Shown here one piece after another: positions 4,380 through 29,708 of a DNA stretch of 64,000 nucleotides. The notes under the pieces were generated by a model that did no database searches, had not been told where the DNA came from, and saw only the letters and a list, made by a program, of their open reading frames with translations. The translations under genes and the position numbers were made by a program. Location of the stretch: the NCBI RefSeq assembly GCF_024267655.1, contig NZ_CP100595.1:2170001-2234000 (forward strand), written 5' to 3'. Each line of letters opens with the position of its first letter. Position 1 is the first letter of the stretch. Source of the DNA: Arcobacter roscoffensis. GTDB taxonomy: Bacteria; Campylobacterota; Campylobacteria; Campylobacterales; Arcobacteraceae.

Positions 4380-4499
4380 AGAGCTGGCAGCGGCCTACGT
4401 TTCCACAAGTGAAACCTGCAGTATTATCAGCGATGAAGTGCTTGACTTCCAGGTTCGGAATGGGGCTGGGTATTTCCACTTCTCTGTAACCACCAGCAA
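4380..4499 (-). rRNA. rrf: 5S ribosomal RNA
   Basis: On the minus strand this segment starts near TGCTGGTGGTTACAG and ends near GGCCGCTGCCAGCTC. It contains the conserved CCATTCCGAACCTGGAAG loop of bacterial 5S rRNA, and its length of about 118 bases is normal. It is flanked by an 8-bp inverted repeat (4372-4379 and 4502-4509) that would pair to form the processing stem around the precursor. The ends are estimated to within a few bases. Confidence 0.93.
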
Positions 4500-4645
4500 T
4501 ATGAGTATAAAAAGTTCTAAATAAACTCTTTATACTCACATTAGGTAATGAGTGTAAAGATAATGTTAAAGTCTTAATGAATGAAACAATTCACACATTT
4601 ATCAAGTATGCATATACTTAATAAGATAGTAAACCAAGAAATATA

Positions 4646-7558
<2,913 letters not shown>

Positions 7559-7898
7559 TTTTTTATGTTGATAAAGTAATTTACATTACTTCACCGTTTG
7601 AATAATTATTCCTTGGCTACTATCTTATTAAATATATTACTATATTCAATAAAAAAGTTGTGTTTTAAAAATTGTTTCTTATTTTAGTTCATATTTAAAC
7701 TTTCATTTAAATATTCGCTAGAAAAATTTTAAGACTTTAACATTATGTTTTTAAATATCATATCCTTTATTATCAAATAAAGAATGTTTAAAGATTATAA
7801 ATAATCTTTATAAACCGAATATAGAAAAGGTCGATATTCCCTTTTTTTACTAACTTTGTTAGTTTCTGAGATAAGAATCGAATCTTATCTCTTTCTCT
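7559..7898 (-). other. 16S-23S internal transcribed spacer without tRNA genes
   Basis: The 340-base spacer contains no tRNA-Ile or tRNA-Ala, the usual occupants. It holds the 5' arm of the 23S stalk (7609-7631), a hairpin with two 9-base arms (7789-7797 and 7802-7810), a boxA-like sequence on the minus strand (TAATCTTTAAACA, complement of 7785-7797) and the 3' arm of the 16S stalk (7807-7826). It also holds two perfect small hairpins: ACTAAC/GTTAGT at 7851-7865, and 9-base arms at 7868-7876 and 7883-7891. These fit precursor folding, antitermination and RNase III processing. Confidence 0.75.
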
Positions 7899-9416
<1,518 letters not shown>

Positions 9417-9633
9417 TGAAGTATTTGAAACTGACAATTTTTGTATTAAATTACAAAATTATCACTCAAAATGCTTTTTACTTTCGTAAAAAACTTAAAT
9501 AGACAAGAATTGTATTTCTTGTTTTTTATATCGTTTATTCTATATTCGGTTTATAAAAATTACTTCTTATTAACCTTCTGTTTTTAAAGATCATAATCTC
9601 TTTTAGAACTTCTTGTCGTTCCTCTGAAATTGG
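9417..9633 (-). other. rRNA operon leader
   Basis: About 216 bases lie between the predicted transcription start and 16S rRNA. They contain a boxA-like sequence (TGATCTTTAAAAA, complement of 9581-9593) resembling the antitermination boxA, the 5' arm of the 16S processing stalk (9538-9557), and a hairpin TTTTGTA/TACAAAA around 9438-9457. There is no open frame of interest. Confidence 0.6.
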
Positions 9634-9639
9634 ATGGGA

Positions 9640-9668
9640 ATTATAGACAAATATCTCTCGCTTGTCAA
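9640..9668 (-). promoter_or_regulatory. Consensus promoter of the rRNA operon
   Basis: On the minus strand TTGACA (complement of 9663-9668) and TATAAT (complement of 9640-9645) are separated by exactly 17 bases, a perfect sigma70 match. Upstream of -35 the sequence is A/T tracts that could act as an UP element. The discriminator is TCCCATCC, almost the same as that of the tRNA-Asn promoter at 10323-10351. Confidence 0.92.
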
Positions 9669-10015
9669 GCGATTTTTCTAAATTAAAGCTTAAATTTTGG
9701 AAATTATGGATTTTTGTATTGAAAAATCTATATTTTATTACCTTTTAGAGTTTATATTTTTTATTCTTTTTACCTTATTTGATTTTTACTATTCTTTTTT
9801 ACATAAATAGAAAAGAATTTCTTTTGTAAATTCACATTAGATGTGTAAAGTTTATAAAGTTAAGATACTAAGATTAGCTGACATACGACCAAAGTTTATT
9901 ATAGTAGGCATATATGAACTATTTAATGAAAAGTTATAATTGTTAATTTCTCATAATATTTTAATTTATTAATTGTTTACTGTGAAATATTATGTGATTG
10001 ATTAAATATATGAAG
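9669..10015. other. Intergenic AT-rich region between rRNA promoter and tRNA-Asn cluster
   Basis: I find no gene here. The part next to 9669 is the likely UP element of the rRNA promoter. Near the tRNA end, a 10-base inverted repeat (9952-9961 and 9985-9994) with a loop of about 23 bases lies downstream of the last tRNA and may contribute to ending its transcript, but it lacks a clear T-run. The rest is featureless AT-rich sequence. Confidence 0.4.
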
Positions 10016-10090
10016 TGGCTCCGGCACCTGGATTCGAACCAGGGACCAAATGATTAACAGTCATCTACTCTACCACTGAGCTATGCCGGA
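10016..10090 (-). tRNA. tRNA-Asn(GTT), copy 3 in transcription order
   Basis: The 75-base minus-strand sequence folds as a cloverleaf: acceptor TCCGGCA/TGCCGGA, D-arm with AGCTCAGTGGTAGAG, anticodon loop CTGTTAA giving GTT, and T-arm with GGTTCGAATCC. The CCA end is encoded (GCCA). It is base-for-base identical to the two copies at 10111 and 10219. Confidence 0.97.
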
Positions 10091-10110
10091 TTTTGAAGTT
10101 AATTTATAAA

Positions 10111-10185
10111 TGGCTCCGGCACCTGGATTCGAACCAGGGACCAAATGATTAACAGTCATCTACTCTACCACTGAGCTATGCCGGA
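10111..10185 (-). tRNA. tRNA-Asn(GTT), copy 2
   Basis: Identical to the neighbouring two tRNA-Asn genes, with the same GTT anticodon loop and encoded CCA. It is separated from copy 3 by 20 bases and from copy 1 by 33 bases of unrelated AT-rich spacer, so only the tRNA bodies are conserved. Confidence 0.97.
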
Positions 10186-10218
10186 ATCTATAAATTATGA
10201 TATGTTGTATTAAAAATA

Positions 10219-10293
10219 TGGCTCCGGCACCTGGATTCGAACCAGGGACCAAATGATTAACAGTCATCTACTCTACCACTGAGCTATGCCGGA
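10219..10293 (-). tRNA. tRNA-Asn(GTT), copy 1 (promoter-proximal)
   Basis: First of three identical tRNA-Asn genes read from one consensus promoter (10323-10351). The anticodon is GTT and the CCA is encoded. No other amino acid is represented in the cluster. Confidence 0.97.
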
Positions 10294-26587: not shown

Positions 26588-27774
26588 TATTCTTCCTTAA
26601 ATTTTTTACTATAAATTAGAAAAACAAAAATTGTTAAAAAGCTTAATATTTCTTTTGTAAAAAAAGCTCCAAAATCAAATTGTGTAATAACTAAAAAATA
26701 AATTGAAACAGAAAGATAAAGACAATTCTTACTTTTAACTATTTCTTTTAAAATTATAAAAATAGTAAAAAAACAAAAGAAGAAGCCAATTAAGCCTGTA
26801 TATAATAATATTTCTAAAACCATGTTATGAGGGTCAGGAAATTTATTTAAATAAGTATTTGGTAAACTTGCCCAAGAATCTATACCGTATCCAATGATTG
26901 GATTTAACTTTATAAATTCAATAGTATGTAGCCAGATAGTAGTTCTATGACTTGAATATCCCTCAAGTAATTGAGAAAATCTCATTTGAAGAGAATCAGA
27001 AGAAAAATAAACTGCTAAAAGCAGCCCTATAAAACCAAATATATATAATATATGATTCATTTTTATTTCTCTGTAGTTAAATACCATCAATACAAATATA
27101 GATGCAAAACTAGCAACCCAAGAAGATCTTGAGAATGAAAATATCATAAGAAATGTAAATATAGAAAATAGTATAACTGCTACTTTTTTATTATACGTAA
27201 AAAGAATTGCACTTAAAACAACTCCCATCCCCATATGTAAGCCAAAAGAGTTTCTATTGTTTAAAGTACCATGAATACCAATTCCATTTAAAATAGAAGG
27301 GTTTAAAATCAGCTCATACAAACCTAATAAAGCTAAATAAGTTAATGAGCTATATACGAGAATTTTAACAAATTTTTCTTCGAAATACTTTTTTTTATAA
27401 AAATATGCTAAACAAACAAAAATCAAACCATATCTAATGACAAACATAAAAGTAGTATGCCATGACTTCTCACTTAAGTTTTCAGGATTGACTAAATTTG
27501 ATAATATCATTGAAAAAACAATTAAAAAAAATCCTATAGATAGGTATCTAACTTTTCTTAAGTTCTCTATTAAAATAGAGTAATCTTTATGTTTAAATAA
27601 AGAATAGATAAAGAAAAGTATAATCAAAGCCATAGAACCTTGGAAAATAGCATTTTTAAATGGTATTGACATTATCCAAAGTACTAATAAAATCTTAAAA
27701 ATGAAACTTTTATTTTTTTCAATTAATATTGTTTTAATAATATACTCCTTTATATACGTAAATAGTCTTTTCAA
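26587..27774 (-). CDS. O-antigen ligase-like (WaaL/Wzy) membrane protein
   Basis: A 395-residue polytopic protein with about ten to twelve spans and a large periplasmic loop holding WLHTIEFIKLNPIIGYGIDSWASLP, followed by PHNMVLEILLYTGLIG. This is the Wzy_C/O-antigen-ligase signature. It would join polysaccharide to the lipid A core, or polymerise repeat units, at the periplasmic face. The listed start is a TTG at 27774 that overlaps the upstream GT4 by 41 bases and has no clear ribosome binding site. An excellent AAGGAG (27745-27750) precedes an in-frame ATT at 27736-27738, which overlaps the GT4 stop codon. Either start is possible; the ATT would be a rare initiator. Confidence 0.8.
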   Translation of the reverse strand: MKRLFTYIKEYIIKTILIEKNKSFIFKILLVLWIMSIPFKNAIFQGSMALIILFFIYSLFKHKDYSILIENLRKVRYLSIGFFLIVFSMILSNLVNPENLSEKSWHTTFMFVIRYGLIFVCLAYFYKKKYFEEKFVKILVYSSLTYLALLGLYELILNPSILNGIGIHGTLNNRNSFGLHMGMGVVLSAILFTYNKKVAVILFSIFTFLMIFSFSRSSWVASFASIFVLMVFNYREIKMNHILYIFGFIGLLLAVYFSSDSLQMRFSQLLEGYSSHRTTIWLHTIEFIKLNPIIGYGIDSWASLPNTYLNKFPDPHNMVLEILLYTGLIGFFFCFFTIFIILKEIVKSKNCLYLSVSIYFLVITQFDFGAFFTKEILSFLTIFVFLIYSKKFKEE

Positions 27775-28831
27775 TCATATTTTCTAAAGAAAAGTTATTC
27801 TTTATATAATTTAAACCATCAAAGTTTAATTGTTCACATTTTATTATTTTTTTACTTAATTCTTTTACATCACCTATTTCAAAGAAAAACCCATTTTCAT
27901 TTTCTATTATTATATCTTTTACCCCACCATGATTTGTTGCAACTACTGGTGTATTTAAAGCTATTGCTTCTGCTACTGCTCTTCCGAAGCTTTCTGGTTT
28001 TTTTGAACTACTTACAACTACATCACTTATGTCATAAACTTCAGCTATTTTACTTTGACTTCCTGTAAAACTGATATTTTCTTTTAAATTCAATTCTTTT
28101 ATTAATTCTTTTAATGAGTTAAAATAGTCTTGTTTATCTTCTCTAACACCACCAACAATTATAGCTTTTATATTTTTTTTACTTTTTTTTACTTCAGAAA
28201 TTGCTTTTATAAATGTTTCATAATCTTTTAGTTGGGTAACTCTTCCTATAATTGACACTATAAATTTATCTTTTAAATCATGCTCTATTTTGAAGTTTTC
28301 AATAAAGTTCTTATCAAGGTTATTTTTATTAAAAAGTTTTGTATCTATACCTCTTGGTATCACAGTGATCATTTCATCTGACACTTTATAGTTAGATTGA
28401 ATATACTCTTTTATAGAATTACTTACACAAATCACATGATCTGCTTTTGTCATAATCGAGCTGTAAAAACCAACACTATTAAAACCATGAACAGTACTTA
28501 CTATTTTAGCTTTTAGATTTTTCTTTGCAAAATACACAAGCCATGCAGGTACTCTACTTCGCACATGAATAATATCAGGGTTTATATCTTTTAATATCTT
28601 TTTTAAAGAAGCGACTCTTGAAAGAAGTGTAAATATATTTTTACTGCAAACATCAAAAGTATAGTGTTTTCCACCATCAGTTTCTATTTGAGGTAGAAGT
28701 TTTCCTCCATTGCTTATTACAATAGATTCTATTCCTTTTTTTACATATTCTCTACTAGATTCAACTGTTCCTCTTTCAACTCCACCTTCATTTAACTCAG
28801 GTAAAACTTGAACTACCTTAAAATTTTCTAT
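27734..28831 (-). CDS. Family 4 glycosyltransferase with a non-canonical start codon
   Basis: A 365-residue GT4 enzyme if read from an ATA at 28831. The full N-terminal domain is present in frame: KVVQVLPELNEGGVERGTV, REYVKKGIESIVISNGG, and PDIIHVRSRVPAW. The C-terminal domain has VSIIGRVTQLKDYETFIKA and the E-x7-E motif in KPESFGRAVAEAIAL. The first ATG/GTG/TTG in the frame is a GTG at 28564, in the middle of the conserved HVRSR strand, and would delete about 89 conserved residues. A stop codon (TAG, 28852-28854) closes the frame upstream. The only near-cognate candidate is ATA at 28829-28831, one base after the stop of the ELM1-like gene. The acceptor is unknown. Confidence 0.85.
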   Translation of the reverse strand: MENFKVVQVLPELNEGGVERGTVESSREYVKKGIESIVISNGGKLLPQIETDGGKHYTFDVCSKNIFTLLSRVASLKKILKDINPDIIHVRSRVPAWLVYFAKKNLKAKIVSTVHGFNSVGFYSSIMTKADHVICVSNSIKEYIQSNYKVSDEMITVIPRGIDTKLFNKNNLDKNFIENFKIEHDLKDKFIVSIIGRVTQLKDYETFIKAISEVKKSKKNIKAIIVGGVREDKQDYFNSLKELIKELNLKENISFTGSQSKIAEVYDISDVVVSSSKKPESFGRAVAEAIALNTPVVATNHGGVKDIIIENENGFFFEIGDVKELSKKIIKCEQLNFDGLNYIKNNFSLENMIEKTIYVYKGVYY

Positions 28832-28832
28832 A

Positions 28833-29708
28833 TTAAATTTCCACTCTTTCTAAAAGTTTTTCAAAATCTACTTTTTTATTCATACTAGATACTTTTTCCA
28901 CAAGTCTATGATATTTTGTATTCTCTTTTTTAGATTTTAAATTTATTATATTTATTTTTGCATCTGTATTAGCTCGTGCTTCACTTAGCATTGATGTTGA
29001 ATCTTGTGTGATATATAATTCATCACAAACATTAATAAAATCATAAACAGGGTTTATTTCAGGTTCTCTTGAATATATAAGTTTATAATCAAACTCATAT
29101 TCATCTATCAATCCATCAACTTCAAAAGGTGTTCTTGCACTTGTAGTAATGTACTTTAAACTATTTGTACTTTCTTCAAATATTTTGTTTAACTCATCTC
29201 TTAAATCATCAACATCTAAAGTAAATACTGAATTGTTTCCACCTATTATTATACCAACAGCATTTTTTTCTTCATTTTTTTCTAAAATATTTTTAGCTTT
29301 GCTGTATGATAAATTTAAAGGTACTTCTAAAATATTGTCTAGTTTTGGAGCTTTATCATGTTCTTGAGCTATTATATAGTCAAAATTAACGTATTTGTAT
29401 CCTTTTGGAAGCATTAAAACTACTGATTTTTTATTTTGAGTTTTACTTATAAATTTATTAAAATAGTAAGTACTAGATCCAGTACTTACAACTGCATCAT
29501 AAAATTCATAGTAATATTTTCTATAATCTTCAAACAGTTCGTCAGTATAATGGTTTATTCTATCAAAAAAATAAGACATTGCTTTATGTAGTTTTGTTTT
29601 AAATTTTACTTCAACAATATCATAACTTATATTTTTTATTTTGCAAAAGGCAATTGACTGGTTTAAGTGACCTGGTTTACCATCACTTATTATTAAAATT
29701 CTTTTCAT
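28833..29708 (-). CDS. ELM1-family protein
   Basis: The 291-residue protein belongs to the family named after plant mitochondrial fission factor ELM1. It shows ILIISDGKPGHLNQSIAF at the N-terminus, a central GIIIGGNNSVFTLD strand-loop, TTSARTPFEVD, and ELYITQDSTSMLSEA near residue 235, which together form a GT-B-like fold. Bacterial members sit in lipopolysaccharide loci and are probably glycosyltransferases, though the function is not settled. It overlaps the acyltransferase gene upstream by 26 bases, and its stop lies one base before the presumed ATA start of the following GT4. Confidence 0.75.
   Translation of the reverse strand: MKRILIISDGKPGHLNQSIAFCKIKNISYDIVEVKFKTKLHKAMSYFFDRINHYTDELFEDYRKYYYEFYDAVVSTGSSTYYFNKFISKTQNKKSVVLMLPKGYKYVNFDYIIAQEHDKAPKLDNILEVPLNLSYSKAKNILEKNEEKNAVGIIIGGNNSVFTLDVDDLRDELNKIFEESTNSLKYITTSARTPFEVDGLIDEYEFDYKLIYSREPEINPVYDFINVCDELYITQDSTSMLSEARANTDAKINIINLKSKKENTKYHRLVEKVSSMNKKVDFEKLLERVEI

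Follow-up and report, generated by a model that had tools for sequence, protein, structure and literature searches.

The window analyzed here is a stretch of 64,000 nucleotides from Arcobacter roscoffensis (contig NZ_CP100595.1, positions 2,170,001 to 2,234,000), and it contains, on its minus strand, a gene for a GT4-family glycosyltransferase that has no standard start codon. Read from an ATA codon at 28,831–28,829, the gene spans positions 27,734–28,831 and encodes 365 amino acids. Directly upstream on the same strand lies an ELM1-like gene (Pfam Mito_fiss_Elm1; 28,833–29,708), its presumed partner in translational coupling. The TAA stop codon of the ELM1-like gene (28,835–28,833) is separated from the ATA by a single base at 28,832 (UAA U AUA in the message), and the glycosyltransferase frame is +1 relative to that of ELM1. 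The junction on the minus strand reads ...TTAGAAAGAGTGGAAATT TAA T ATA GAA AAT TTT AAG GTA GTT CAA.... The frame is bounded upstream by an in-frame TAG at 28,854–28,852, from which it continues as AAA GAG TGG AAA TTT AAT ATA GAA AAT TTT AAG GTA GTT CAA. Between this TAG and a GTG at 28,564–28,562, located within the conserved HVRSR strand, there is no ATG, GTG or TTG, and the ATA is the only AUN codon of the start region. The window also contains an rRNA operon (5S, 23S and 16S) on the minus strand at 4382–10,293, with three consecutive tRNA genes of equal score at 10,019–10,293.

A Pfam search with a 366-codon query covering the frame matched both domains of a GT-B enzyme, Glyco_transf_4 at residues 17–166 and Glycos_transf_1 at residues 182–337 (E-values of 6e-30 and 2e-37). 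The E-x7-E motif of the GT4 C-terminal domain was recognized by eye in the translation as ESFGRAVAE. The frame runs through 365 codons without a frameshift or stop and, judged by its sequence, the gene is intact. The open reading frame listing nevertheless begins this gene at GTG 28,564, giving a product of 276 rather than 365 amino acids, and the Glyco_transf_4 match starts within the stretch lost in this way. The preliminary description had pointed out the gap between the TAG and the GTG, the ATA one base past the upstream stop with a purine-rich GAAAGAG about 12 bases ahead of it, and the 89 residues that ordinary gene calling would lose; all of these held, coordinates included, when the frame was re-read.

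Orthologs of the glycosyltransferase, 57–75% identical and aligned from K5, were found in 24 of the 104 family genomes (the window genome included), among them named Poseidonibacter, Aliarcobacter and Arcobacter genomes, and in some other Campylobacterales. A search of a plasmid collection with the locus gave no match. In about 36 related loci, a start codon is found exactly one codon ahead of a K/R-V/I-VQ sequence. The codon before the K/R/T is ATG in practically all orthologs, with TTG in L002/L050 and L004, and GTG in L058. Every ortholog examined has a standard start, whereas the gene in the window has lost every standard start codon, a change private to that genome. A normal ATG in the relatives, considered in the preliminary description as a possibility at the same point as the ATA, is indeed present, but it is located one codon before the K and aligns with the TTT at 28,822–28,820, three codons downstream of the ATA. 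Thus, the ATA does not mark where the ancestral gene started, and the junction has been rearranged relative to that of the relatives.

The ELM1-like gene directly precedes the glycosyltransferase gene, with an overlap or a gap of a few bases, in L041/L054, L043, L057 and L058 and in the more distant L008, L009 and L049, as it does in the window. In relatives with this gene order, the glycosyltransferase start likewise abuts the ELM1 stop or comes close to it. Most other relatives have a TviB-like nucleotide sugar dehydrogenase between the two genes (551.6 bits, under the TviB family cutoff of 592 and over the nucleotide sugar dehydrogenase cutoff). No such gene is present at the corresponding point in the window (28,832), elsewhere in the window, or in the 800 kb of the genome that were searched. 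We considered the possibility that deletion of the TviB-like gene had removed the start codon, but there is no recognizable remnant and the more distant relatives also lack the gene, so that the change may have gone in either direction.

The GAAAGAG (28,844–28,850), located 12 bases before the ATA, is part of an imperfect Shine–Dalgarno site, GAAAG.G.GG, that pairs with the 16S rRNA tail CCUCCUUUC. The tail as read from the genome is GGATCACCTCCTTTC. The duplex formed by the 20 bases before the ATA was computed at −6.4 kcal/mol, including the mismatches and with a long spacing to the ATA. This value equals or beats those of 75% of 226 genes with an ATG start (median −4.9), and 4.5% of ATA codons picked at random reached it.

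Across 864 kb of the window genome (G000), with about 690 conserved frames, only a handful lacked a standard start. One of these encodes an AEC-type permease (PF03547; G000:C1:81,323). In 30 Arcobacteraceae genomes (loci L184–L213), the homologous start codon, taken as the codon before (E/D/Q)AL(I/V)SVAT, was ATC in 17, ATA in 10, ATT in two and ATG in one; it is ATC in both G004 and G068. The non-AUG codon mostly follows AAAGGA or TAGGA, close upstream in-frame stops are present in many genomes, and no later start is conserved. A histidine kinase gene (G000:C1:105,185) has an ATA six bases behind GAGGAG, and the related loci (L214–L243) display the pattern GAGGAG-N6-ATA or ATC (or AUU). The codon two before this start is TAG in 10 of 30 genomes and, in 15 of 30, a TTG that immediately adjoins the Shine–Dalgarno sequence, and in about half of the genomes the N-terminus is without any standard start. 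The gene overlaps the end of a response regulator (RGVGYRF), which may impose part of the conservation, and the AUA and AUC of the kinase therefore count for less than those of the permease.

The sole sensible start of an EamA transporter gene (G000:C1:419,689; L164 from 19,689) is an ATT in the arrangement AAAGGA-N6-ATT. Among the relatives, G068 has a GmhB-like gene with the same arrangement, and G004 has a radical SAM gene that is likewise without a standard start. Standard starts are available for infC, encoding IF3, in the window genome, so that no infC-type autoregulation is implied. A methyltransferase-like gene on the minus strand (L147 14,584; G000:C1:74,584) has no standard start across 80 conserved codons, and duplex computation found no convincing Shine–Dalgarno site upstream of it.

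The glycosyltransferase is probably translated from the AUA at 28,831–28,829 by ribosomes that re-initiate after terminating on the ELM1-like gene. Ribosomes finishing at the UAA at 28,835–28,833 would re-initiate one base downstream, assisted by the purine-rich site inside the end of ELM1, and the initiator tRNA would pair with two of the three positions of the AUA. The product would begin fMet-ENFKVVQ.... The ancestral start, one codon before the K, would have become TTT in the window lineage after the rearrangement of the junction, and expression was presumably lowered, not abolished. We infer both the use of the AUA and its coupling to ELM1; what the sequences show directly is that every standard start is gone, that the orphan N-terminus is conserved, that the ELM1 stop adjoins the ATA, that the assembly is of good quality, and that further genes of the family have AUA, AUC or AUU behind a ribosome site and no standard start. 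The preliminary description had offered AUA initiation, re-initiation or frameshifting from the ELM1-like gene, and a miscalled base. An AUA coupled to the ELM1 stop is now the best supported of these, since genes elsewhere in this genome and in the family also seem to start at AUA, AUC or AUU, while frameshifting found no support and a miscall is disfavored. Weighing against the AUA are the mismatches and the long spacing of the Shine–Dalgarno duplex, as well as the poor performance of AUU in E. coli, at about 0.3% of AUG according to a passage of PMC10666635 that cites Hecht 2017.

The main rival explanation is that the change at the junction simply removed the start, leaving a gene that is nearly silent, or a young pseudogene whose frame is still open. 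The codon homologous to the start is TTT where the relatives retain a standard start, the change is private, and elsewhere the genome shows one or more apparent lesions, including a TAA codon in an ABC binding protein gene described below. Against such a loss, the orphan N-terminus is well conserved. Upstream of GTG 28,564, the 86 codons have an identity of 0.738 to 22 relatives, compared to 0.732 for the rest of the protein (0.763 and 0.773 for pairs of relatives at similar distance), and 39 of the 40 columns that are invariant in the relatives are kept. There is no sign in the alignment of translation having long shifted to the internal GTG. The nearest relatives, however, are only about 75% identical, and at this distance a start lost only recently would not have led to visible decay. 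The uninterrupted frame and the presence of a usable AUA adjoining the ELM1 stop also argue for an active gene, and we consider loss of the start unlikely.

Faulty sequencing or assembly could conceal a standard start at the junction: the ATA and the homologous TTT are each one base removed from a standard start, and the relatives have one. The assembly is a single contig of 3,154,193 bases, and we set 864 kb of it against 1.2 Mb from G004 and 0.4 Mb from G068, discarding before counting the antisense shadows that made up the bulk of the raw matches. The comparison with G004 (499 orthologs, 167,000 codons) yielded no frameshifts and one nonsense codon, at about 483.25 kb of G000:C1. That with G068 (174 orthologs) yielded one doubtful stop and one doubtful frameshift, the latter as two duplicate matches in a short frame close to the rRNA operon. 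The nonsense codon against G004, an in-frame TAA, interrupts the gene of an amino-acid ABC binding protein that is otherwise 90% identical to its G004 counterpart (L168, around G000:C1:483,250, minus strand), and reflects either a pseudogene or a rare sequence error. Because frameshifts and nonsense codons are nearly absent, a miscall is disfavored, and it appears improbable that an error should have fallen precisely on this start codon. Furthermore, the closest counterpart, L043, reads TAA TAT ATG AGA GTT GTT CAA where the window reads TAA TATAGAAAATTTTAAG GTA GTT CAA, a difference of about seven extra bases in the window. One miscalled base cannot turn the former junction into the latter, although one base could still create a standard start. 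The other genes of this genome that similarly lack a standard start also speak against an error, which we regard as less probable than a genuine loss of the start.

Translation of a shortened protein from GTG 28,564, the first standard start and the one chosen by a mechanical caller, is very unlikely. The GTG is inside a conserved strand, its use would cut away roughly half of the Rossmann domain at the N-terminus, and the 86 conserved upstream codons would be left unexplained. Slightly harder still to credit is a +1 ribosomal frameshift near the ELM1 stop, producing an ELM1–GT4 fusion. Hardly any gap separates the two genes, and their relative frames are appropriate, but inspection by eye revealed no recognized shift site at the junction, and the related loci encode separate ELM1 and GT4 proteins with their own starts, with no fusion among them. 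Equally remote is initiation at TTT 28,822, in spite of its homology to the start of the relatives, or at another non-AUN codon such as AAG 28,819, as UUU and AAG support initiation very poorly and the duplex at the TTT is weaker, at −3.3 kcal/mol.

Initiation of the glycosyltransferase at AUA is a further case of a known phenomenon. The E. coli genes infC and pcnB start at AUU and, like the gene described here, are real genes with a start other than AUG, GUG or UUG; their starts are conserved, whereas the AUA is found only in the window genome. AUA is also the start codon of infC, ccpN and citZ in S. aureus, where AUA reporters reach roughly 10–30% of AUG (PMC13009471). These genes share with the glycosyltransferase an AUA as the sole start of an intact, conserved gene, and the AUA of citZ is likewise a lineage-private change, in NCTC 8325 strains (PMC13009471). 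Conservation of a nonstandard start among relatives is thus typical of such genes but not a requirement. In contrast, ribosome profiling and reporter assays back the S. aureus starts, and an extended Shine–Dalgarno sequence precedes infC and ccpN (PMC13009471), whereas the AUA of the glycosyltransferase is a candidate start with an imperfect site that touches the upstream stop. Taken together with these S. aureus genes, the family genes without a standard start make AUA initiation of the glycosyltransferase credible. Termination–reinitiation operates at short intergenic distances, and the one-base gap between the ELM1 stop and the AUA falls in this range (PMC10666635). The arrangement resembles the trpBA type (PMC10666635) in that the two genes form an operon-like pair, with the start one base past the stop of the first, but the re-initiated codon would be AUA instead of AUG, GUG or UUG, and the coupling is putative.

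Common gene callers accept only ATG, GTG and TTG, and genes of this kind are therefore truncated, assigned a wrong start or marked as pseudogenes. Under standard calling, the glycosyltransferase, a real enzyme, would be short of about half its first domain. It is possible, if somewhat short of probable, that the Arcobacteraceae keep a lasting set of genes with AUA, AUC or AUU starts, comprising the AEC-type permease (family-wide), the histidine kinase, the EamA transporter, the GmhB-like phosphatase and the glycosyltransferase of the window, and accounting for at least roughly half a percent of the conserved genes. Such a set might be maintained by start-codon proofreading laxer than that of E. 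coli. If these starts are common, the annotation of all genomes of the family is affected, and the Arcobacteraceae would offer a natural setting in which to study the strictness of bacterial start-codon proofreading. No relevant description of such starts in Campylobacter or Arcobacter emerged from a literature search and, as far as this limited search extends, the conserved AUC, AUA or AUU start of the permease has not been described. The permease start provides a direct test case; it is more interesting than the glycosyltransferase itself and merits its own study.
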